This document shows, piece by piece, positions 16,367 to 25,568 of a stretch of DNA of 25,568 nucleotides. The position numbers and the translations under genes were made by a program. Within the stretch, counting starts at the first letter, position 1; every line of letters starts with the position of its first letter. The notes beneath the pieces are model-generated. The model had not been told where the DNA came from. It worked only from the letters and a program-made list of their open reading frames with translations, and did no database searches. The DNA comes from a virus, in IMG/VR virus record IMGVR_UViG_3300037099_000049, positions 1-25,568 of that record; one strand, given 5' to 3'.

Positions 16367-18556
16367 TTACATCCCTCCTATATTTTGCGGTGCCGGGCTT
16401 TGCTGCTGCTGGTTCGGAACTATTTGCGGCTGAGACTTGGGCGAACTTTTTACCCCTTGTCCCAGGCCAGCTTCCTGCACAGCTTCCGCAGCTATCGCTG
16501 TAGGCTTGGCCTGCGGGAAGGCCCGTTCAAAATCTTTTTGAGATAGCGCCAGAATCGTAGAGATTGCTTGCAAAAGTTCGGGCTTAAACAGATTCGTTCT
16601 TTGCAACTTCGAAAGCTGCTGTCTCATCGGTCCCTCCATCATGCGCTGAACTATTTCATCTCGCTTCGGGATGTTCAACATTTCGAGTAGTGCCGGCAGG
16701 TCGATAAATTTAGCTTGAGCGAGTTGCATGTATAACTGCTGCATCGCCCATCTGTCTGTCGGTAGAGTCGAACCGGTCTCTATCTTGAAGGCATGTTCGC
16801 CCTGGAACTGCTCGGATACGCCCTTAAACTCTATTTCCTGCTCCCCGCTTTCGCCGAAGTATTTAAGAAGGCGAGGCTTTGTGTACCAGTTCTGGCCAAG
16901 AGATATGAACATCCGGCCTTTTTCGACTTCGCCCACTTCCACATTCCGGATCTTTTCCCGGAAAACAACTTGAGCTTTTTCCTGTAAAGACCTTATGGCT
17001 GAATTTGCCGTTATCCCGCCGGGTTTTCTCCCCTCCGAAACATCGGTAAGGCCAGTCACCATATCGACAAGTCTTATCAAAAGTTGGATGTAAAGCGTAT
17101 AGTCTTGAGGAAGAGCAGGGATTTGGAGAAATCTGATCGCGGCAGATATCCCACTGATGGGCTCCCAAATTCTATCGGGGAGATTATTAACCTGCCTTCG
17201 ATCTATCCCGCACCCTTTTGGGAGAATCAGCGGAGGTAGGGCCGCAACGTCGAGATGCGCGGCAATCTTCGTAATTTTCTTGCTGATCTCAATTACCAAC
17301 GGTTCGATCTGCTCGATAATGCCCAGGCCATATTCCGAGAGGCCATCCGAGTATGACAGGCGGCGGTTGAATGGGAATTTATCCCAAAGGTAGCAATCAC
17401 ACGTTACTTCGCGCGGGATATCTGGATTGATCGAAGGGTTGGGCAGGTCATCCAGCACAAGCTTCCCGCTGTTCGTCACATGGATGCATCGGATAAATCC
17501 TGGATACTTCGATTGGTAAATTGCTTCGGCCTGTTTGATGACCTGGACCTGCCGCATGACTGGCTGGTTGGTCATCGGGTCAACCACGGGCTGCATTGTC
17601 AACGGGTCTATGGCTGGTTGGGATTCCAGGGCGGGGTAAAGTAAATCTTCTTTTTTGGGCTTCCCCTTGGTGCTCTTGCCCGTAACGGGATTCACCCATT
17701 CCATCGTATAGTCTTTAACCCAAAGTTCCATTACAAGGGCCTTGGGGATATCCTGAGTCCCGAAGTCCCATGCATCGTCAGGTTCGATAGGTTTGAATGT
17801 TCCGGGGTATTGGTGGCCCGTCCCCAAGGGGCGGACGGCCGAGCGGAGTCTATTGCCGCGAACCGGCTTCCTACTTTCCCCCAAAGTCAGGGAAAGGTTT
17901 GGGTCTTCCTGGACTTTACCCTTCGACTTCGGCCACCTACGATATATCTCCCCTATTTCCATGGCTTCGAGATGAGCGATCATGGGAGATTTCTGGATAT
18001 CAAATACACATCCCGGCCAAAAGAGGATACCGAAGGAATCACAAAGGACAGTCTCTATTTCGCCAAGTCCCCCGTCAAGATCAAAGTTGAAAATCATCTT
18101 CTCGACTTGAAAACCATAGAGTTCTGATAGCCCAACCGACTCTTGCAAAATGCGCTGCTGAGATGTGATCTCCCACCATTCATCATATGCAGCCTGCCAG
18201 GCGTTCCCCGAAAGATCGGATGATCCGTTCCGTCCCTGGATAGTGGCGCGAGGCTTATTGTCTGTGAGATTGCCCTTGAGGGTGTTTATCGTTTTCCAGA
18301 TAAGATTGACGGGGACTTGAGGATATTTGGTTTTAAGTTGAAAGAATTTGCCCCGATAGAGTTCATGATTGTGGATGAGAAGATCGTCTATTCCGAGCCG
18401 CTTCCTGTACTGCAACATTTTAGCTACCGAATTTTGGACGAAAGAACCTACCCGGCGGTCCCCCTCCGCTGGCGGCTCAAGGCTCCACTTCGGATGGTTT
18501 GGAGTATTCCACGCCGATTCGCTGCTGCTCAGTTCTGCACTTGTTTCATAGGACAA
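16367..18556 (-). CDS. Portal protein
   Basis: The 729-residue product has the size and layout of podovirus (P22-type) portals, the dodecameric vertex for DNA packaging and ejection. N-terminal segments (YRKRLGIDDLLIHNHELYRG, INTLKGNLTDNKPRATIQGR), a mid region with LYGFQVEKMIFNFD, the helical LVIEISKKITKIAAHLDVAA, and TANSAIRSLQEKAQVVFREK support this. The C-terminus is Gln/Pro-rich. The start is weak: TTG 18556 is the only early start codon in frame after a TAA 12 nt upstream, with no ribosome site in front of it. A 10-codon ATG frame (from 18562) overlaps it and might feed reinitiation. The next in-frame ATG would remove 46 residues. Confidence 0.82.
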   Translation of the reverse strand: MSYETSAELSSSESAWNTPNHPKWSLEPPAEGDRRVGSFVQNSVAKMLQYRKRLGIDDLLIHNHELYRGKFFQLKTKYPQVPVNLIWKTINTLKGNLTDNKPRATIQGRNGSSDLSGNAWQAAYDEWWEITSQQRILQESVGLSELYGFQVEKMIFNFDLDGGLGEIETVLCDSFGILFWPGCVFDIQKSPMIAHLEAMEIGEIYRRWPKSKGKVQEDPNLSLTLGESRKPVRGNRLRSAVRPLGTGHQYPGTFKPIEPDDAWDFGTQDIPKALVMELWVKDYTMEWVNPVTGKSTKGKPKKEDLLYPALESQPAIDPLTMQPVVDPMTNQPVMRQVQVIKQAEAIYQSKYPGFIRCIHVTNSGKLVLDDLPNPSINPDIPREVTCDCYLWDKFPFNRRLSYSDGLSEYGLGIIEQIEPLVIEISKKITKIAAHLDVAALPPLILPKGCGIDRRQVNNLPDRIWEPISGISAAIRFLQIPALPQDYTLYIQLLIRLVDMVTGLTDVSEGRKPGGITANSAIRSLQEKAQVVFREKIRNVEVGEVEKGRMFISLGQNWYTKPRLLKYFGESGEQEIEFKGVSEQFQGEHAFKIETGSTLPTDRWAMQQLYMQLAQAKFIDLPALLEMLNIPKRDEIVQRMMEGPMRQQLSKLQRTNLFKPELLQAISTILALSQKDFERAFPQAKPTAIAAEAVQEAGLGQGVKSSPKSQPQIVPNQQQQSPAPQNIGGM

Positions 18557-18593
18557 ATCATTTTATTTGGGCTGTCTAGCAGCTCGCTCAAGA

Positions 18594-18773
18594 TCAGATT
18601 TTCTCCCTTGTTCCCTTACCCTTTTGCCTCATGCCTCTTTCTTCCGGAGACATGTTCGCGTATAGAGCCCGCATCTGAGCTTCGGCTTTCTTCCGGCTTT
18701 TGTGCTTCCCCTTTACGCCGGAAGGACCCCGCACAATAAATTCTCCTTTTCTCTCTTCGATTTTGTAGGGCAC
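18594..18773 (-). CDS. Small basic phage protein, 59 aa, GTG start
   Basis: A frame from GTG 18773 encodes VPYKIEERKGEFIVRG, then a Lys/Arg-rich stretch with KSRKKAEAQMRALYANM, ending TREKI. AAGGAG lies 6 nt before the GTG and overlaps the preceding stop. The GPSG-x-K-x-K-x-H-K-S-x-x-x-A-E-A-Q-x-R-A-L-Y pattern is familiar from short phage proteins near portal and terminase genes whose role is unknown. A DNA- or RNA-binding role would fit its charge. Confidence 0.62.
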   Translation of the reverse strand: MPYKIEERKGEFIVRGPSGVKGKHKSRKKAEAQMRALYANMSPEERGMRQKGKGTREKI

Positions 18774-18775
18774 GG

Positions 18776-19276
18776 CTAACTCCTTTTTGTTCGTTCCTTG
18801 TACTGACTCCGTTCGCGAACGTTCTTTTTAAAAGCTCCGGTTGGATTTTCTTTGAGATTATCCAGAAGCAGAGAGAGCCGAGCTTTCTTCTCGGGATTCA
18901 TTGTAGCATTCGGGGTAGTTGACGGCGGAACTTGTGAGGCATGTTCGACTCGCTTTTGGAAGTCAATCTTGGCCTCTTCAACGGCAACCCACGCCTTGAT
19001 GTCATCAAGAGACTTAAACGCCGAGAAGCGCTTATCCTCATCAATCTTTACCCGGAGGAAAGGCGTTATCTGCCCGTCTCTATGCCCGAGCGGAAAGCTG
19101 AGGCATTCGGGGCATTGGAGATCAAAGTCAATCCGACCGGCAAGTGACCACATGCGACCGTAAGGCGAATCGTAGGGGATCGTGAACATGCCTGGTGTAA
19201 AAGGGAAGCCGAGCTTCTCGGAATCACCCCTGAGTATCCAGTCGCCACAACTGCCGCAATATATCTCGAAGAGCAT
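18776..19276 (-). CDS. Protein of unknown function with N-terminal zinc-ribbon-like Cys pairs
   Basis: The 166-residue product starts MLFEIYCGSCGDWILRGD, with C7/C10, and has C55/C58 in FDLQCPECLSFPLGH, a possible treble-clef or ribbon metal site. The second half is charged and helical, ending in a basic tail (KKNVRERSQYKERTKRS). The start overlaps the preceding stop as TAATG, with GGAG about 8 nt upstream. I do not recognise a family. It is one of four Cys-pair proteins clustered around the portal gene. Confidence 0.55.
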   Translation of the reverse strand: MLFEIYCGSCGDWILRGDSEKLGFPFTPGMFTIPYDSPYGRMWSLAGRIDFDLQCPECLSFPLGHRDGQITPFLRVKIDEDKRFSAFKSLDDIKAWVAVEEAKIDFQKRVEHASQVPPSTTPNATMNPEKKARLSLLLDNLKENPTGAFKKNVRERSQYKERTKRS

Positions 19277-19683
19277 TACTTGATCTCCGTCGTCTTGTCC
19301 AGAAACTCTGCGTATTCCTGAGAATCGCTGACCGGATATTCCTCTTTGATCCTTATAGACTCGGCGGCTTCCAGTTCAGCGAAGATTTCGTTTTCCTCTT
19401 CGGCCCGCTCGGCTTCCAACTCAGGATCAACAAACGGTACGTTGAGACCTCGCAGTGGACTCGGGTGCGCAAAATCAGGGATCTCTTCCACAACCTCCCC
19501 CTTGTCCTTCAGCACGCCCATTTTAAGAAGCTGCTCACGGATAGATTCATCCTGTACCGCGCCGGGCATCAACAGTCCTCTTATGCCCGATATGATCTTC
19601 TGCGGCAGGAAGAAAGCACATGCCACCGCTGCAATACAAATTACGAACATGAAGCACATCGCCAGGGTAAGAGCGAGTTCCAT
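19276..19683 (-). CDS. Small membrane-anchored acidic protein, unknown
   Basis: The 135-residue product begins with a long hydrophobic segment (ELALTLAMCFMFVICIAAVA, residues 2-21, continuing to about 26), then has a soluble Glu-rich domain (ELEAERAEEENEIFAELEAA). No lipobox or clear signal cleavage site is seen, so it is likely a single-span membrane protein. AAGGA precedes the ATG by about 9 nt. No family is recognised. A role in lysis or membrane interaction is possible because other membrane proteins cluster here. Confidence 0.5.
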   Translation of the reverse strand: MELALTLAMCFMFVICIAAVACAFFLPQKIISGIRGLLMPGAVQDESIREQLLKMGVLKDKGEVVEEIPDFAHPSPLRGLNVPFVDPELEAERAEEENEIFAELEAAESIRIKEEYPVSDSQEYAEFLDKTTEIK

Positions 19684-19695
19684 TAAATATGATCC

Positions 19696-19911
19696 TTACG
19701 GCTCTACAACCGGAGTTTCAGGGATTACCACCGGTGCCGGTGCTATCGTTGTAATACCCAAACCTGCGCCGATGGATGACAGACTGGCCACAATGGCCAG
19801 AATTCTATCCAGTTCGTTGGCCAGGTTGTGCAGTGCCGCCGCGTCGAGATTGGCGATGGCCGTACTGGCCGCCGCCTGGAATTTGGTTTCCACGTCCGAT
19901 ATCTGGATCAT
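19696..19911 (-). CDS. Small Ala-rich helical protein, unknown
   Basis: From ATG 19911 the product has 71 residues. A GTG at 19920 is in frame, but AAGGAG lies 8 nt before the ATG and favours that start. It has an amphipathic Ala/Leu-rich helix (AAALHNLANELDRILAIVAS) followed by a hydrophobic and Pro/Val-rich tail (APAPVVIPETPVVEP). It has no Cys and no recognised domain. Confidence 0.5.
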   Translation of the reverse strand: MIQISDVETKFQAAASTAIANLDAAALHNLANELDRILAIVASLSSIGAGLGITTIAPAPVVIPETPVVEP

Positions 19912-19925
19912 TTTGCACACTCCTT

Positions 19926-20303
19926 TTAGATTCGGTTCAGCCCGTTTGGGTCGTTCGGGTCCACCGCTGCGGATGTTTGAGGTGGAGCATTAGTCAGCAG
20001 TGCTGCTGAATCCCGGCTATGTCTCGGATCATAAAGAGCTATAGGACGTTCTGCGGCTTTCTCGGTTGGGTCCTGTTGGATACCGGTCTTGGAGTCGAAC
20101 AGGGCACCGAGACCAACCGCAGCGGCGACGATCTTGATTTGAAGCTCAGAGTCGATCTGCACACCACAATACTTGCCAATCTCTGTTGCTACCATACCAA
20201 CGACAAGACCCATGAGCTTCGTATCGCACCAATAGGGGCGGCCAGCTGCTTGGTCCTTCTTGTAGTAATACATAGTGTCGATGAGCTTCCAGAAAATGTC
20301 CAT
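19926..20303 (-). CDS. Two-hydrophobic-segment protein, holin candidate
   Basis: From ATG 20303 the product has 125 residues. The frame extends further upstream, but GGAG 5 nt before this ATG and the TGATG junction with the small Cys-rich gene favour it. Segments KLMGLVVGMVATEIGKYCGV (about 29-48) and LQIKIVAAAVGLGALFD (about 53-69) are two hydrophobic stretches joined by a short turn with QIDSE, a layout seen in some phage holins (G-x-x-id-x-E-x-x-x-x-I). The tail is hydrophilic and Pro/Asn-rich. It lies about 2.3 kb downstream of the endolysin gene in the same run. It could instead be a minor structural protein. Confidence 0.5.
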   Translation of the reverse strand: MDIFWKLIDTMYYYKKDQAAGRPYWCDTKLMGLVVGMVATEIGKYCGVQIDSELQIKIVAAAVGLGALFDSKTGIQQDPTEKAAERPIALYDPRHSRDSAALLTNAPPQTSAAVDPNDPNGLNRI

Positions 20304-20452
20304 CACTTCTCCGCGGTAATTCCGGCCATATCCATCACGGCCACATAGTTTTTGTATTCCGAACAACAATCTTTGCAACTCAGGTTCCGCTCCACAAACC
20401 AATAGGCAGTACAGGTTAGGCACGGTGGATCGTAGAGGGCTAGAGTGTCCAT
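20303..20452 (-). CDS. 49-aa Cys-rich mini-protein
   Basis: A short frame from ATG 20452 encodes MDTLALYDPPCLTCTAYWFV, then ERNLSCKDCCSEYKNYVA and a short tail ending AGITAEK. The pairs C11/C14 and C26/C29/C30 suggest a small zinc knuckle. The gene overlaps the end of the nucleotidyltransferase-like gene by 13 nt and the next start by 1 nt (TGATG), which supports real translation. GTGGAG lies about 9 nt upstream. A competing longer frame over the same bases lacks these signals. Confidence 0.58.
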   Translation of the reverse strand: MDTLALYDPPCLTCTAYWFVERNLSCKDCCSEYKNYVAVMDMAGITAEK

Positions 20453-20949
20453 TTCAGCTTGCTCCACTTCGGGGCATTGGTATCAACATACGCTCCGAGC
20501 GGATTACGCCGCTTTTTGCCGTGCATCTCGCCATTTGCCTGAGACATGGATTGAATTTGGAAATCAATTTTCAACCCGGTCCTCTTTGCCATGTACTCGC
20601 TGATAGCTGTGTTGACGAGAGACCAGAAGGGGAGTACTTCCCCATTTTCACCTGCGCCGAAAAGCGTGTGCCATTTCTTATCACCAAGAATCAAGCGGAC
20701 ATCCACGTCCCGGAAGTCCCGGCTTTGCGTTGCGGACCCCACGAGATAGCAGCACCACTCCCCGAAACAATGAGCGACGAAGCTGGACACGTGTTCAAGG
20801 GCGAATATTTCAGGTGCTCCAACCCAGCAATACCGATCGATGGCTTCTGCCACCGACCGCTCAATCGCTGCCTCCCGCGACCGGTCAAGTTCTTTCTCGA
20901 AATCAGAATCGGGAGTCGGCCCTAAACGTGCGTCGATGGCGTCGGTCAT
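20440..20949 (-). CDS. Minimal nucleotidyltransferase-fold protein, putative
   Basis: The 169-residue product contains CCYLVGSATQSRDFRDVDVR (66-85) followed by LIL: a G-S pair (71-72), then D81-x-D83, the signature of the polymerase-beta nucleotidyltransferase superfamily. LKIDFQIQ (126-133) supplies the third carboxylate, D129. These residues normally bind two metal ions and transfer a nucleotide to an alcohol, protein or RNA. The N-terminal half is helical (EKELDRSREAAIERSVAEAI). At this size it is a bare catalytic fold without the helical domain of larger members. It lies 1 nt after the phospholipase-like gene. The substrate is unknown. Confidence 0.62.
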   Translation of the reverse strand: MTDAIDARLGPTPDSDFEKELDRSREAAIERSVAEAIDRYCWVGAPEIFALEHVSSFVAHCFGEWCCYLVGSATQSRDFRDVDVRLILGDKKWHTLFGAGENGEVLPFWSLVNTAISEYMAKRTGLKIDFQIQSMSQANGEMHGKKRRNPLGAYVDTNAPKWSKLKWTL

Positions 20950-20950
20950 T

Positions 20951-21397
20951 TCACAGTTTCCATTTCAGCGGATACGCCGGATCATATGGGTCGTTTGGGC
21001 CACCCTTATGCGCGAAAAATGCTGCCTGCCCCCAATCCGCAACGGCCTTGTAATAGCTGAAAGCAACCGAACGGACAGCTACACGGCGTACTCTGTCGAC
21101 AACGCCAGCAGCAGCGCAATGAGCATCCACAAGTACCAACAGGTTATACAAAAAACATCGGTCGGCGATTCGCTTGTCGACATCGTTTGCCCCAAAATGA
21201 TAGCAACAATCGTGGATCTCACATGCAGAGAAGAAGTCCACACCATCAATCGAGTCCGGTATGAGCTTGACTTTCATGGACTGCGGCCCACAACCATTAG
21301 TAAGATCCGTTCGTTGCGCATCAGTGAGATCGGCAACCACTTTGGGCATGATAAGGCCGTCTTTGCCCTGGACAATTTCTCCGAATACGTCGGTCAT
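20951..21397 (-). CDS. Phospholipase A2-like protein
   Basis: From ATG 21397 the product has 148 residues. NGCGPQS (34-40) resembles the glycine-rich calcium loop, and ACEIHDCCYHFG (58-69) is the C-x-x-H-D-x-C-Y helix with the His62-Asp63 pair that activates water in secreted phospholipases A2. ADRCFL (78-83) supplies the second Asp (D79). These enzymes cut the sn-2 acyl chain of phospholipids. There is no signal peptide, so export would need holin lesions or release into the cell. The start overlaps the lipoprotein stop as TGATG. Its position within the lysis cluster suggests an action on host membranes. Phage proteins with the NGCGP...IPD...HD pattern are known mostly as hypotheticals. Confidence 0.68.
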   Translation of the reverse strand: MTDVFGEIVQGKDGLIMPKVVADLTDAQRTDLTNGCGPQSMKVKLIPDSIDGVDFFSACEIHDCCYHFGANDVDKRIADRCFLYNLLVLVDAHCAAAGVVDRVRRVAVRSVAFSYYKAVADWGQAAFFAHKGGPNDPYDPAYPLKWKL

Positions 21398-21756
21398 CAC
21401 TTACTCGTCTTTACTGTAGTTGTTGAACTGCTGCTGGTCGTCGGAAGCAGCGCGCCCATTATCGGGGCCATAACCGCCGCGTTCCCGCCGGAACCAACAG
21501 CGGTATTGACCACTTGCTGAAAAGGACCCGCTCCGCTTGCTGAATCCGAGTGAGCAACCGTAGCCTTGCCGTTCTCGATCACATACCGGTCGGAGCCTTT
21601 ATGGATGATGCCGAACCCGCCAGCGTCGCTACTCTCCCAAAAGACTACGGCACCGACTTGGGTAGGAGTCAGATCGACGTACTTGACGCTTGCGGTCTGG
21701 GATGCAGCACAGGCGCATAGGGTCAGACAGACGAAACAAAGGATTATCCAGCGCAT
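21397..21756 (-). CDS. Putative lipoprotein A of the lysis region
   Basis: From ATG 21756 the product has 119 residues; GAGG lies 5 nt upstream, favouring this over the GTG at 21759. The N-terminus MRWIILCFVCLTLCACAASQ is a short signal with a likely lipobox ending at C16. The body contains YVDLTPTQVGAVVFWESS and a Gly-rich region, and the C-terminus is a Ser/Thr tail. After acylation it would sit in the outer or inner membrane. It could act as an outer-membrane spanin subunit or a surface protein. It is co-translated with the phospholipase-like gene. Confidence 0.55.
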   Translation of the reverse strand: MRWIILCFVCLTLCACAASQTASVKYVDLTPTQVGAVVFWESSDAGGFGIIHKGSDRYVIENGKATVAHSDSASGAGPFQQVVNTAVGSGGNAAVMAPIMGALLPTTSSSSTTTVKTSK

Positions 21757-21763
21757 CACATCC

Positions 21764-22177
21764 TCACTTCGTGGCTGTGGGCAGGGCAGACGTGGTGCCC
21801 GTTGTGGTGGTCGGACTGACGGCCTTATAAACGTCGGTCACGGATCCCGACACATTTTTCAGATCGGTCGCAACGGCAGCGCTGTTATTCGCGGTCGCGT
21901 CGGTCGCGAGCTGGAGAGCCTGAGTGGTCGTCTTGGCTACTGCGGCGGTAATGGTGGCATCCTGCGGGAGAACCCCTTCGGCGACATTAGCGGCGAGGGC
22001 GAGGGCCAGAGATCCCCAGTAATTAACCGACGCCATGGTGGTCGCTGTGTCTGTGGTTGTCGCGGCGGCGGTGGCCGTCCCGGTCGTAGCGGGTGCGGTT
22101 GTGCTGGTAGTCGTGGAGCATCCCGCCAAAACAACGGCCAGTGCCAATACTGCCAAAATCCCAAGGTACTTTTTCAT
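21764..22177 (-). CDS. Putative lipoprotein B of the lysis region
   Basis: From ATG 22177 the product has 137 residues (a TTG at 22192 is in frame, but GAAGGG precedes the ATG by about 7 nt). MKKYLGILAVLALAVVLAGC is a textbook lipoprotein signal with lipobox LAGC and acylated Cys20. The mature part is a Thr/Ala-rich low-complexity linker (20-50), then a helical Ala-rich domain, then another Thr-rich tail. The body is longer than a usual outer-membrane spanin. It is the second lipoprotein beside the endolysin, so a spanin-like or surface role is likely but unproven. Confidence 0.6.
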   Translation of the reverse strand: MKKYLGILAVLALAVVLAGCSTTTSTTAPATTGTATAAATTTDTATTMASVNYWGSLALALAANVAEGVLPQDATITAAVAKTTTQALQLATDATANNSAAVATDLKNVSGSVTDVYKAVSPTTTTGTTSALPTATK

Positions 22178-22206
22178 CGTAATTCCCTTCAATGTGGTTT
22201 ATTTCA

Positions 22207-22518
22207 TCAGGTCATTGGCTCAAAATGTTCAAGCTCTGCCTGTTCTTTCACGGTCATCCCAGCACGCTCTGCCAATGCTCTAACCAGGATGCAAAGCCGT
22301 TTTATCTCTAACTTATGATCTGACATCTGGTTAATTAGTTCGAACCGGAGTTTAGCGGTCTCCGCATATAAATTAGTGGTCTCCGTTTTTAGTTCCAGCA
22401 TCCCGCATGAACGGCATTGGTCGCCACGAGCCAGAAGTTTTTGGAGAGCCATCCCCAAGACAAGGGCGACTATCACACCGACAACGTGCCAGCCGGAAGC
22501 CGCCAAAGCCTCCATCAT
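22207..22518 (-). CDS. Membrane protein with coiled coil, i-spanin or holin candidate
   Basis: The 103-residue product has one N-terminal membrane span (WHVVGVIVALVLGMALQKLL, 10-29), a CRSC pair (35-38), and a long charged helix (KTETTNLYAETAKLRFELIN onward) that could form a coiled coil. This N-in, C-out layout matches inner-membrane spanins of Rz type, which link to an outer-membrane lipoprotein. It starts with an ATGA overlap on the 35-aa membrane gene and is followed by two lipoprotein genes, the natural order for a spanin pair. Confidence 0.52.
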   Translation of the reverse strand: MMEALAASGWHVVGVIVALVLGMALQKLLARGDQCRSCGMLELKTETTNLYAETAKLRFELINQMSDHKLEIKRLCILVRALAERAGMTVKEQAELEHFEPMT

Positions 22519-22622
22519 CGTCCCGCCTCGATATCTCTCAGCATCTCATAGATCAGCCGGCCGAAACCAACAGCGACGAACACGGCGCCCATAACGGCAA
22601 GGATGGGGGAGTAGTCGGTCAT
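22515..22622 (-). CDS. 35-aa single-span membrane protein
   Basis: A short frame from ATG 22622 encodes MTDYSPILAVMGAVFVAVGF and a charged tail ending RDIEAGR. One membrane helix covers about residues 6-25. It overlaps the endolysin stop and the next start, both as ATGA, strong evidence for translation. Very small one-span proteins next to endolysins can be pinholins or holin regulators. No family is recognised. Confidence 0.58.
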   Translation of the reverse strand: MTDYSPILAVMGAVFVAVGFGRLIYEMLRDIEAGR

Positions 22623-23113
22623 GCGTATACCGCCAAGCGCGTGGCATATCTGGCCAAAAGGTCAAGCATTTTTCGGCCGCCCTGCTTATAGTTGTTGCCG
22701 GGGAAACTTGCCCACCTGGACGAACACGCCCTGATTGCGCTCTCGATGTGTCCGGATTCGATCAAATCAACCGCTCCGCATTCATGGATCATCTGGACTG
22801 CTATTTTGTCCTGAGAGAGCGGGGAGAAATCCGGGAGGTGAAGACTGATCTTGTACGCATCGAAATATCGGGCAAGCTCCTGATATCGTCCGGCCGCCGT
22901 TGAGTAAATGTGCAAACTGTGAATATCCATTACTCGCCGTGGATGGTCGGCGTAGGAATCAAAGAGAATCGGCTTCGCTGGCGTAGAGCCCACAATGACC
23001 CGGTAGCCGTTATTGGTGGCCTCCGTCATGAGCCCGTCACCGAGTTCGGACCAAGCGATTGTGTCGAGGAAGGCACGAAAGTGCGGAGACAGAGAACCAT
23101 CAGGCAGATTCAT
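22619..23113 (-). CDS. Endolysin, lambda R-type lytic transglycosylase
   Basis: The 164-residue product matches lambda R closely in pattern: FLDTIAWSE with candidate catalytic Glu23, GYRVIVGS, YADHPRR, STAAGRYQELARYFDAYK, LPDFSPLSQDKIAVQMI, IRACSSRWASFPG. Lambda R is about 158 residues, so the gene is full length. This enzyme cuts peptidoglycan between N-acetylmuramic acid and N-acetylglucosamine, forming an anhydro end, and depends on a holin for release; no signal peptide or SAR segment is seen. AGGGGG precedes the ATG by about 5 nt. The ATG overlaps the preceding stop, and the 3' end overlaps the 35-aa membrane gene. Confidence 0.92.
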   Translation of the reverse strand: MNLPDGSLSPHFRAFLDTIAWSELGDGLMTEATNNGYRVIVGSTPAKPILFDSYADHPRRVMDIHSLHIYSTAAGRYQELARYFDAYKISLHLPDFSPLSQDKIAVQMIHECGAVDLIESGHIESAIRACSSRWASFPGNNYKQGGRKMLDLLARYATRLAVYA

Positions 23114-23328
23114 TGCATCCCCCTATACGGCCAGTTAGCGAACAGACCGAGAAGTCCCAGATTGCGTTCAATCCTCAGACTCACAACCTCGAACAGTTTA
23201 AAACCTCGCGCTGCAGGACTCGTGCGGTCCGGATTATGCGCGAAACTATAGGAGCGTTGCCGGTCGATCCGGCGGATCAGCCAATCCTCAGTCTGGCGAT
23301 AATCGCGGGTGCGAGATGATCGGCACAC
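23110..23328 (-). CDS. 72-aa basic protein of unknown function, GTG start
   Basis: A frame from GTG 23328 starts directly after the TGA of the preceding gene, with AGGAG 7 nt upstream, and ends overlapping the endolysin ATG as ATGA. The product is basic (RDYRQTEDWLIRRIDRQRS) with a hydrophobic C-terminal stretch (IERNLGLLGLFANW). No domain is recognised. Tight packing on both sides supports it as a real gene co-expressed with the endolysin. Confidence 0.52.
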   Translation of the reverse strand: MCRSSRTRDYRQTEDWLIRRIDRQRSYSFAHNPDRTSPAARGFKLFEVVSLRIERNLGLLGLFANWPYRGMQ

Positions 23329-23667
23329 TCATATGCTCCTCAGCGCCGCCGGGACAACTCCCGACTGCTCGGCATTCCAGGAATGAGGGATATGCTCTTG
23401 AGGATGGGCTTTCATTTTTTTGAGATCGAATGTCTTTATGATCGCCGCTTCAGCGCAGGCAGTGAGGGATGCGCGGGCCTCGGCGGTTTGGGCCTGGTCC
23501 ACAATACGGAATGCTATGAGATGGAAGTCGCCGGCAGCCCGGAAGATCATCTTGGCCTCTTCGGAGAGGTCGGAAGCATCTCGGCCATAGATGCGGGCGA
23601 GTTTGAGTTGGAAAGCGTTTTCCTCACGTTTACGGAGCTTCTTCGCTTTTCTTTCAGATTTTGTCAT
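23329..23667 (-). CDS. Protein of unknown function, first gene of the leftward run
   Basis: The 112-residue product begins with a very basic segment (MTKSERKAKKLRKREENAFQ) and continues as a helical, Ala-rich domain (AARIVDQAQ-like helices around 45-85). A basic tail of this sort suggests nucleic-acid binding, but no motif is recognised. AGGT precedes the ATG by 6 nt, a weak ribosome site. It is the gene nearest the 615-bp non-coding region from which leftward transcription probably begins. Confidence 0.52.
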   Translation of the reverse strand: MTKSERKAKKLRKREENAFQLKLARIYGRDASDLSEEAKMIFRAAGDFHLIAFRIVDQAQTAEARASLTACAEAAIIKTFDLKKMKAHPQEHIPHSWNAEQSGVVPAALRSI

Positions 23668-24060
23668 CAGATACCTGTCGCGCTCGTCTAACTCTTTATT
23701 GCCGTTATGGCGTCACAGAGCAGAGGGGACCGGGTGGAGATATGTTTTTCAGGGTGAAGCCTCGATCATTTTTGGCAATCCGTTTTTATGGATACGGAAA
23801 TTATCGATCTGAGGGGAAGGATAAGGTTTCTGCCCCTCCCTGCGCTCCCTGGTTTTAAATGCACTTCGACTCCCGTCTAAAACCCTAAAAATATGTCTCG
23901 TGGATATATCGCAGCACCCGCAACACTCACGTAGTTGCCAACGACACGTCCCTTTGGTGTACATACTGAAAATATCTGCGTTTATCCGTTACCCTGGTCA
24001 GTTCCAGGCAATCGGCGCCTGAGAGTCTGGGCGCCCACGAGTTTAATTTACCCTCCGCAC

Positions 24061-24097
24061 TCCTCCTTTTGGGAGGTGGCCCCAGGGATAAGGAGGA
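24061..24097 (+). promoter_or_regulatory. SD-like AAGGAGGA with two alternative pairings
   Basis: TCCTCCTT (24061-24068) is fully complementary to AAGGAGGA (24090-24097). The same pyrimidine tract can instead pair locally as CCTCC/GGAGG (24062-24076). The purine site is a perfect ribosome-binding sequence in plus RNA, but no start codon follows at a usual distance. If transcribed, this would be a switchable structure or a ribosome decoy. Confidence 0.35.
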
Positions 24098-24150
24098 ACC
24101 CCGGAGCCTGGTGAGTGTGGGATGTCGGGTAGCTGAGGGGGGATTGTACG

Positions 24151-24173
24151 GCCGGTTTTAAAGGGAAACCGGC
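24151..24173 (+). repeat. 8-bp perfect inverted repeat (stem-loop)
   Basis: GCCGGTTT and AAACCGGC form a perfect 8-bp stem with a 7-nt loop (TAAAGGG). A competing pair, TTTTAAAGG (24156-24164) with CCTTTAAAA (24199-24207), uses part of the same stem and encloses the tandem repeats, so two exclusive folds are possible. Confidence 0.6.
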
Positions 24174-24200
24174 TATGACCGGCTATGACCGGCTATGACC
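24169..24200. repeat. Three tandem 10-bp repeats (CCGGCTATGA)
   Basis: CCGGCTATGA occurs three times without change, followed by CC. The unit length of about one helical turn would place three protein sites on the same DNA face. The array begins inside the right arm of the stem-loop and ends about 27 bp before the CTTGA/TCAAG palindrome. Confidence 0.85.
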
Positions 24201-24226
24201 TTTAAAATCAACCCTTTTAACTATGC

Positions 24227-24251
24227 CTTGACATATCAAGTGGTGTATTAT
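24227..24251 (+). promoter_or_regulatory. Palindrome and promoter-like elements before the sigma-HNH gene
   Basis: CTTGACATATCAAG (24227-24240) is a palindrome (CTTGA/TCAAG around CATA) that contains a consensus -35 TTGACA. TATTAT (24246-24251) resembles a -10, but the spacer is only 12 nt, so this is not a normal sigma70 promoter. A second CTTGACA follows at 24256. The palindrome may be an operator, and the promoter may need an activator or another polymerase. Confidence 0.4.
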
Positions 24252-24282
24252 GGGTCTTGACAACTCACAAAAGGGGGAAACG

Positions 24283-24978
24283 ATGACCGACCGCGAATCA
24301 CAAATTCTAAGATTGCGTTTCTTTGAGAACAAGACATTAGCGCAAATCGGTTGCGCTTTCGGCATAAGCCGAGAGAGGGTGAGGCAAATCGTAGACAGGA
24401 GCATTCGGGAACTGTTGAGGAAGCCCGAAGAGGAACGTATCACTTTCACTGAACCCGATGTTGAGACTACGACAAACTCAGACAGGCTAATGCGATTGTT
24501 CTACCTTATGGGTACTAAAAACCGAGACAAAATGTCAAGACTGGCAACATTGTACAATATTGAGAAACCGGAAGATTTTTTAAGGGTGTCGAGGAAACAA
24601 ATAACCAGCAACAGGGGTGTGGGTCCTCCCTTTTTCTATATTCTCAAAATGGGACTCTTCAAAATGGGCATCGTTTATGATGAAAACGATGACTTCGAAC
24701 TCCTTGAACGGAAGATTGAAGGATTTAAGGAGCCCGACCCCGCGACCAGAGGACAGAGACTCCGCTTTATGATTTTACAAAGAGACGGCTTCAAGTGCCA
24801 ATATTGCGGAAGAAACCCACGCTCCGATAAATCCGTGATTCTTCACGTTGACCACATTATGGCCATCGCTAACGGCGGCTCATGGGATGAATCAAATCTT
24901 ATAACCGCCTGTCAGCAATGTAACCTCGGGAAACTGCACACGATTATCGTTGACAAGAAATTACTTTTTCCTTCCTAA
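24283..24978 (+). CDS. Sigma70-region-4-like HTH fused to HNH endonuclease
   Basis: From ATG 24283 the product has 231 residues. AGGGGG lies 6 nt before it, so the earlier in-frame ATG at 24250 is less likely. Residues 3-46 (ILRLRFFENKTLAQIGCAFG, then ISRERVRQIVDRSIRELLRK) match sigma70 region 4.2, the helix-turn-helix that reads -35 elements. Residues about 84-130 (NIEKPEDFLRVS, RGVGPPFFYILKMG) resemble a helix-hairpin-helix of the kind in the RNA polymerase alpha C-terminal domain; this is tentative. Residues 160-216 are an HNH nuclease: C172/C175, H188-V-D190-H191, N205, C210/C213. It is the only substantial plus-strand gene, with its own upstream repeats. It may be a homing-type nuclease with a sigma-like targeting domain, or a transcription-linked nuclease. 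Confidence 0.85.
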   Translation: MTDRESQILRLRFFENKTLAQIGCAFGISRERVRQIVDRSIRELLRKPEEERITFTEPDVETTTNSDRLMRLFYLMGTKNRDKMSRLATLYNIEKPEDFLRVSRKQITSNRGVGPPFFYILKMGLFKMGIVYDENDDFELLERKIEGFKEPDPATRGQRLRFMILQRDGFKCQYCGRNPRSDKSVILHVDHIMAIANGGSWDESNLITACQQCNLGKLHTIIVDKKLLFPS

Positions 24979-25143
24979 AATCTGTTTGCGTCGCCACTCG
25001 GAAATCAATTCTGTATCACTCTCCCATATTCCAGAGAGTTTCTTGGCAGGGAATCCCTCCTCTTTGATCCATTCCAAGATCGTCGCCCAGGATCTCCCAC
25101 AAAAAGCCGCGATCCGCTTCTTCCCCGTCAGAACCAGATCCAT
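24961..25143 (-). CDS. Small HTH DNA-binding protein (Nu1/excisionase-like)
   Basis: The 60-residue product (MDLVLTGKKRIAAFCGRSWA onward) has a helix-turn-helix pattern: GKKRIAAFCGRSWATILEWI, then EEGFPAKKLSGIWESD and WRRKQI. The G-x-x-x-I-A-x-F-x-x-R-S-x-x-T-x-x-x-W and GFPA-x-x-x-x-G-x-W pattern is that of winged HTH domains at the N-terminus of lambda Nu1-type small terminases and in phage excisionase-like regulators. GGAGGGGAG precedes the ATG. Its last 18 nt overlap the end of the convergent HNH gene. Too short for a terminase subunit, it is probably a regulator. Confidence 0.7.
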   Translation of the reverse strand: MDLVLTGKKRIAAFCGRSWATILEWIKEEGFPAKKLSGIWESDTELISEWRRKQILGRKK

Positions 25144-25192
25144 TACTTCTCCCCTCCGCTAACATTGGCTAACGTGGCCGTTCTGGACGATT

Positions 25193-25568
25193 CTACGAAT
25201 TTATGTCCGAACGATAGCCAATGGCAATCTCATATCTCGGCGTGGTATTCGTGTAGAATTTCCCGCTCCAATTCGCATAACCGACTATGAGCGAGTCGTC
25301 AGCCCAGAATATTCCAGTTCCTATATCCTCGATATGTTTAAATATATTCGAAAGGTCTGGCCTTGAAAGTGGCCTGATATCTCCAGCCAGCGCCGCGGCC
25401 TCGAACCATTTGTATTTTCCCTTCTCAGGGGCAAGACACTTCCAGCCATCCGATACGGTGGTTGGAAGCTGGAAAAATGCCTTGAGTCCCAACCAGATAG
25501 GCCCTAAAAACGGTTTCTTTGGGGCATGCTGATAAAATAAAGCTTCAAGCTTCTTACAGTCCGTCTCG
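25193..25568 (-). CDS. Partial gene of unknown function at the right edge
   Basis: The frame is open from base 25568 to TAG 25193, so the start lies outside the window; 124 codons are seen. A TTG at 25492 is an internal codon rather than the start, because the frame continues upstream through KKLEALFYQHAPKKPFLGPI. The visible part is of mixed composition with aromatic segments (GKYKWFEAAALAG, DDSLIVGYANWSGKFYTN, YEIAIGYRSD). No domain is recognised. It lies 49 bp upstream of the small HTH gene on the same strand. Confidence 0.6.
   Translation of the reverse strand, partial: ETDCKKLEALFYQHAPKKPFLGPIWLGLKAFFQLPTTVSDGWKCLAPEKGKYKWFEAAALAGDIRPLSRPDLSNIFKHIEDIGTGIFWADDSLIVGYANWSGKFYTNTTPRYEIAIGYRSDINS

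Follow-up and report, generated by a model that had tools for sequence, protein, structure and literature searches.

A phage HNH nuclease joined to a sigma-70 region 4 helix-turn-helix and a helix-hairpin-helix domain, probably of the homing type

In phages, homing genes form clusters close to terminase and to other essential genes (PMC10448857). The HNH nucleases HK97 gp74 and Skunavirus HrdP, whose genes lie at this position, act in packaging (PMC10448857, PMC12724721), and homing and packaging roles are not necessarily mutually exclusive (PMC10448857). A homing-endonuclease fold is also combined with a helix-turn-helix (HTH) in WhiA, which serves as a precedent (PMC3781837). Here we describe a phage gene whose product joins region 4 of sigma-70 to a helix-hairpin-helix (HhH) domain and an HNH nuclease, and we argue that it is probably (at a probability of roughly 0.6) a free-standing homing-type HNH endonuclease that has borrowed region 4 and the HhH domain for targeting.

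The stretch of DNA analysed, which we call the window, is an IMG/VR-classed virus record of 25,568 bases whose minus strand carries nearly all genes. The nuclease gene lies on the plus strand with an AGGGGG-like ribosome site immediately 5' of it. A sequence-only reading of this DNA had called it the only substantial plus-strand gene, and so it is: the remaining plus-strand ORFs are short or lie opposite minus-strand genes. The gene, its domains and its neighbors are as follows.

24283..24978, plus strand: gene of the region 4–HhH–HNH protein, 231 aa (ORF, translation, Pfam, six non-redundant relatives)
24286..24414, plus strand: sigma-70 region 4 type HTH, residues 2-44, recognition helix ISRERVRQI (PF04545, PDB sequence matches, AF2)
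24529..24678, plus strand: HhH domain, residues 83-132, alpha-CTD-like or UvrC-like (profile matches, AF2 helices)
24751..24939, plus strand: HNH nuclease domain, residues 157-219 (PF01844, alignment with relatives)
24961..25143, minus strand: excisionase-like HTH gene of 60 aa, in convergent arrangement with the nuclease gene (homologues in L090 and L349)
25193..25567, minus strand: RusA-like Holliday junction resolvase, 5' end lost at the contig end (PHROG 1.9e-14, PF05866 2.2e-10)
22619..23113, minus strand: endolysin, close to the start of the lysis/structural run (phrog_90, E 3.2e-41)

The nuclease gene thus stands between the RusA/60-aa HTH pair, the second of which also has a weak terminase-small-subunit match, and the lysis/structural run. 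It is divergent from the genes of this minus-strand run, whose operon starts near 23667, and the non-coding DNA between them, about 600 bp, contained no terminase remnants. Searches of the 7 kb upstream of the portal gene (18557-25568) with one Pfam family and the terminases of L088 and L090 gave no terminase gene; in L088 and L090 themselves, TerS-TerL lies upstream of the portal. Elsewhere in the window, the product of 20951-21400 is a lysis-region protein (NGCGP...IHDCCYHFG) that is phospholipase A2-like by eye and has a homologue at the same place in L090. The portal (16367-18556) has its top match among named phages in Methanosarcina virus MetMV (26%), but the endolysin, together with a lipoprotein-like gene, points to a bacterium as host.

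Both ends of the nuclease protein are plain. Pfam detects region 4 at residues 2-44 (PF04545, Sigma70_r4; E 2.7e-14, 52.9 bits against a cut-off of 24.1), the top matches of a PDB sequence search are region 4 of sigmaA/RpoD, and this part of the AF2 model fits solved sigma-4 structures at 0.7-1.8 Å over 44-51 residues (Foldseek). By all three measures, the HTH that the earlier reading had placed at residues 3-46 and typed as region 4.2 is of the sigma type. Its recognition helix aligns with the RE..RQ of E. coli sigma70, which we take to be the residues that sigma70 uses at the -35 element. The match begins inside region 4.1 in the PDB alignments, however, so that helix 1 of a complete region 4 is apparently missing, and a sigma factor would have region 2 and region 4 in one protein, whereas Pfam gave no region 2 or 3 match in the 231 aa. 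At the other end, residues 172-217 match PF01844 (E 8.6e-12, score 45.5 against a cut-off of 21.4). Every residue of the HNH core named from the sequence is present: the DH-N-N motif is intact (D190-H191, N205, N214) and is accompanied by the zinc-type cysteines C172/C175 and C210/C213. AF2 models this part at low confidence. Its best NCBIfam match is the IscB/Cas9d HNH (5.9e-14, well below the cut-off), the alignment of phrog_8660 to the protein starts at residue 63, and branching in a tree of HNH domains was unresolved. Close HNH relatives also occur in named phages (L099, L100, L101 and L102), where the HNH is N-terminal; their genes have another, no less regular place, immediately ahead of a gene for replication initiation or for a helicase loader.

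The middle of the protein is missed by single-sequence tools. Residues 52-155 searched alone gave no Pfam match, the Pfam profile of the RNA polymerase alpha-CTD (PF03118) had no match in the window, and the middle as a single sequence scored no better against alpha-CTD than shuffled sequence. Only when relatives are aligned does an HhH signal emerge. The seven-member profile of the middle aligns with 17 bacterial alpha-CTD sequences over 50 gap-free columns (hhalign score 28.7, E 5.9e-5), a score that none of 300 column shuffles reached (highest 21.6). As controls among other HhH domains, the UvrC type scored 28.6 and RuvA 21.7; the DNA-ligase HhH control comprised two sequences only. A PDB profile search returned five alpha-CTD chains among ten matches, every one individually sub-threshold. 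The AF2 model, which was built from six sequences and has a mean pLDDT of 73 (about 83-91 over residues 71-140), places helices at 96-101, 104-108 and 115-127, presumably the positions of alpha-CTD helices 2-4 in the hhalign register. The alpha-CTD DNA-contact positions R265, N268, K298 and S299 are K, R, P and F in the window protein and are variable in its relatives. The profile comparisons therefore support an HhH domain, as had been proposed for residues ~84-130, and make the specific resemblance to alpha-CTD proposed with it one of two equal readings, because the UvrC-type HhH matches just as well. Several apparent BLAST matches of the middle were rejected. For Streptomyces phage Bmoc and Vibrio phage 2.095 the alignment covers the HNH alone, the annotated protein of Gordonia GAL1 gave no match, the match in Lactobacillus LL-H is a replisome-side HNH gene, and a Moraxella match examined with these was discarded as well. 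The PDB matches of a structure model of the relative L348 are meaningless, as that model is too weak.

The DNA upstream of the gene had been described as repeat-rich, which overstates what is there. The following elements were found.

24156..24207, no strand: 10-bp tandem repeat ACCGGCTATG, 3.3 copies at 24168-24200, inside a 9-bp inverted repeat
24227..24238, plus strand: first copy of CTTGACAnnTCA, holding TTGACA at 24228-24233 and the palindrome CTTG-N6-CAAG
24256..24267, plus strand: second copy of CTTGACAnnTCA, at a distance of 29 bp from the other and immediately ahead of the start codon

RNA folding of this region is within the ordinary range, and Rfam scans for structured RNA, introns and guide RNAs gave no family match. 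With no Rfam intron match and an ORF that stands alone, we found no sign of residence in an intron or intein. TTGACA occurs in nine exact copies in the window, a total close to expectation (12.1). Four of the nine, however, fall within 24228-24955, two of them in CTTGACAnnTCA within 55 bp upstream of the gene; four copies in any 727-bp stretch arose in 3.5% of simulated windows, so that the signal, which is also post hoc, is modest. Neither upstream copy has a correctly spaced -10 in the window. We take the clustering as a lead to autoregulation: by analogy with the autorepression of I-TevI (PMC2988022), the two CTTGACAnnTCA copies might be an operator for self-limited expression.

A search on the C-terminal HNH subtype, with follow-up, yielded six non-redundant relatives of 30-45% identity; with the window protein they make a family of seven non-redundant sequences, known from viral contigs only. 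Three share the order region 4, HhH, HNH (L266, L276 and L268) and three are HhH–HNH proteins that lack region 4 (L269, L271 and L348). Pfam detects Sigma70_r4 in all four members that bear it. Searches of genomes and plasmids returned HNH-only or sigma-only matches, and the full text of open-licence papers contained no description of the three-domain architecture, although one may exist in other papers. The family thus appears to be small and undescribed, and its architecture appears to be rare and not, as the earlier reading had allowed that it might be, that of a widespread, characterised homing endonuclease. Within the family the recognition helix varies, from ISRERVRQI in the window protein to ISIERTRQL (L266), ISFSRAMQI (L276) and ITRQRAHQR (L268), and only the window protein has the full RE..RQ set. 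In L276, moreover, DP replaces DH and the catalytic histidine is lost, a change that fits the decay expected of homing genes. Together, the divergent helices and the lost histidine are what one would expect of a nuclease family with a shifting target and decaying copies, and not of one held to -35 elements.

The seven members reside in phages with different portal families, whose portals and terminases are unrelated, and in every case the gene lies in the portal/terminase/head or lysis region. The gene in L348 has TerL and a small HTH gene on one side and the portal on the other, that in L352 lies between TerL and the portal, and that in L350 immediately precedes the TerL gene. Those in L346 and L355 adjoin portals of one family, and that in L349 adjoins a virion structural gene. 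All four genes that encode region 4 are antisense to their neighbors, as are five of the seven overall (window, L346, L349, L352, L355); those in L348 and L350 are co-oriented. Two of the genes have sigma70-type promoters ~35 bases before the start codon, TTGACT-17-TATAAT in L346 (11/12) and TTGACA-17-TAATAT in L355 (10/12). The nuclease gene of L349 faces a homologue of the 60-aa HTH gene in the same convergent arrangement as in the window. L090, a distant relative of the window phage by portal and capsid, has TerL, then a homologue of the 60-aa HTH gene and then directly the endolysin; the nuclease gene is absent. Indeed, the records L088-L091 (L088 and L089 being short fragments) gave no match to it, and no empty-site/occupied-site pair was found among closely related phages. 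L266 and L276 have a common neighborhood (portal, SbcC-like gene) at 45% identity, which suggests long vertical maintenance.

The modules of this protein recur in other phage proteins in other combinations. This C-terminal HNH subtype also occurs with PF18780 homing-endonuclease repeats (L120, L129) and, by inspection, with zinc-finger-like, LexA-like or other N-termini (L123, L143, L147, L411). In L202 (2299-3141) the order of the window protein is reversed, with sigma region 4 (E 1.4e-18) at the C-terminus, after HNH_3 and a weak AP2 match. Region 4 is also found with a PF18780 repeat and no nuclease domain (L052, 5980-6630), with tails that look His-Me-like or PD-(D/E)XK-like by eye and have no Pfam nuclease match (L210, L216, L219, L189), and with an alpha-CTD but no nuclease (L047, L190, L222, L248, L249). 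Because it is joined to HNH_3, PF18780 repeats and alpha-CTD in these proteins, region 4 seems to be a general-purpose DNA-binding cassette that can be exchanged between proteins. Nuclease-free viral proteins of the small region 4 plus alpha-CTD-type HhH kind occur in L047, L049, L051, L190-L192, L201, L212, L222 and L249. Their profile match to bacterial alpha-CTD is strong (E 1.4e-14), and they look like minimal promoter-contact mimics; this strong identity makes an alpha-CTD origin plausible for the HhH of the window family. Parts of two polymerase components also stand in one chain in a 451-aa phage protein (L248, 2188-3540), where sigma region 4 is followed by an alpha-CTD (PF03118, E 2.3e-14).

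The window protein has several traits of the homing type: a nuclease combined with DNA-binding modules, an intergenic gene and a scattered distribution. The modular architecture, the other pairings of HNH and of region 4 elsewhere, the unrelated host phages, the antisense genes, the promoters in L346 and L355, the loss of the histidine in L276 and the lack of the gene in L090 all argue for this interpretation, and of the readings offered from the sequence, a homing enzyme with borrowed targeting is the one best supported by family, modularity and position. Against it count the lack of an empty-site/occupied-site pair among close relatives, the vertical maintenance that L266 and L276 suggest, a location that would suit packaging as well, and the low confidence of the modelled HNH. 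The main rival, because HNH nucleases at such a position are known in packaging, is a packaging-associated nuclease that acts with terminase at genome ends and binds DNA through region 4 and the HhH domain. The placement in L348, L350 and L352 speaks for it, as do the excisionase-like HTH gene alongside, with its weak terminase-small-subunit match, and an HNH-bearing PHROG that matches four members and is annotated as terminase small subunit. We nevertheless consider it unlikely, if worth serious weight, since all four region 4-bearing genes run opposite to the head/packaging strand, two genes have promoters of their own, one member lacks the catalytic histidine, and the portals and terminases of these phages are unrelated.

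Two further possibilities relate the protein to transcription. Region 4 could bind a TTGACA-like -35 element or the beta flap, with the HNH cutting host or competitor promoters. This would agree with the sigma70 -35-reading residues retained in the window recognition helix and with the concentration of TTGACA at the gene, but those residues are not kept in L266, L276 and L268, three relatives lack region 4 altogether, the alpha-CTD contacts are unconserved, and the apparent loss of the first region 4 helix, the modest statistics of the TTGACA cluster and the fact that a -35 cutter would cut its own phage all weigh against it. The earlier suggestion of targeting to polymerase itself or to -35 sites thus fared poorly, and we think it improbable. 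It is similarly doubtful that a -35-like TTGACA read by region 4 serves the protein both as operator and within its target, so that promoter sequence would aim the nuclease, with region 4 and the HhH domain mimicking the promoter-contacting pair of sigma-4 and alpha-CTD. Least probable, to our mind, is a transcription regulator domesticated from a homing nuclease in the manner of WhiA, possibly controlling the divergent minus-strand operon. The gene does face the lysis/structural genes across non-coding DNA and a nuclease-dead relative exists in L276, but the HNH motif is intact in the window protein and the gene is not conserved with the phage lineage.

If the protein is a homing-type endonuclease, the HTH would read the major groove at a specific site while the HhH domain would grip the adjacent backbone or minor groove. 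Together, they would position the HNH on a phage genome without the gene, close to the boundary of the packaging and lysis modules, for a nick or cut there, and repair off the gene-carrying genome would copy the gene into the cut genome. In the window phage the protein might, more tentatively, also repress its own expression through the two CTTGACAnnTCA copies.

In general, the DNA-reading end of a sigma factor has been recruited, beside an HhH domain, into a phage nuclease family, where it is likely a targeting module, and the annotation "sigma-70 region 4" in a phage need not imply transcription. If target choice lies with the recognition helix, the four divergent helices offer a natural set for studying how homing nucleases change specificity. 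Among known systems, IscB/Cas9d have a similar HNH, but the window protein has no RuvC domain and Rfam gave no RNA partner in the window. WhiA likewise combines a homing-endonuclease domain with an HTH; it is, however, a catalytically dead LAGLIDADG protein and a cellular regulator, whereas the window protein is a phage HNH protein with an intact motif. The phage region 4 plus alpha-CTD proteins (L047, L190, L222, L249) have the same order, region 4 and then HhH, but lack the HNH, and their CTD is far closer to alpha-CTD (E 1.4e-14). The genes of HK97 gp74 and Skunavirus HrdP, like those of the window family, adjoin terminase and portal, but the region 4-bearing members are encoded on the other strand and have extra DNA-binding domains. 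Finally, in the free-standing HNH homing endonucleases, DNA is bound by AP2, zinc finger or PF18780 elements, whereas the window protein, for which we infer homing, would bind by region 4 and HhH. Nevertheless, T4 Mob, ICP1 IPA-HNH and the HNH proteins with PF18780 repeats resemble it in having a DNA-binding end and an HNH end, and their genes, like those of the window family, are intergenic, near essential genes, and served by an own or borrowed promoter.
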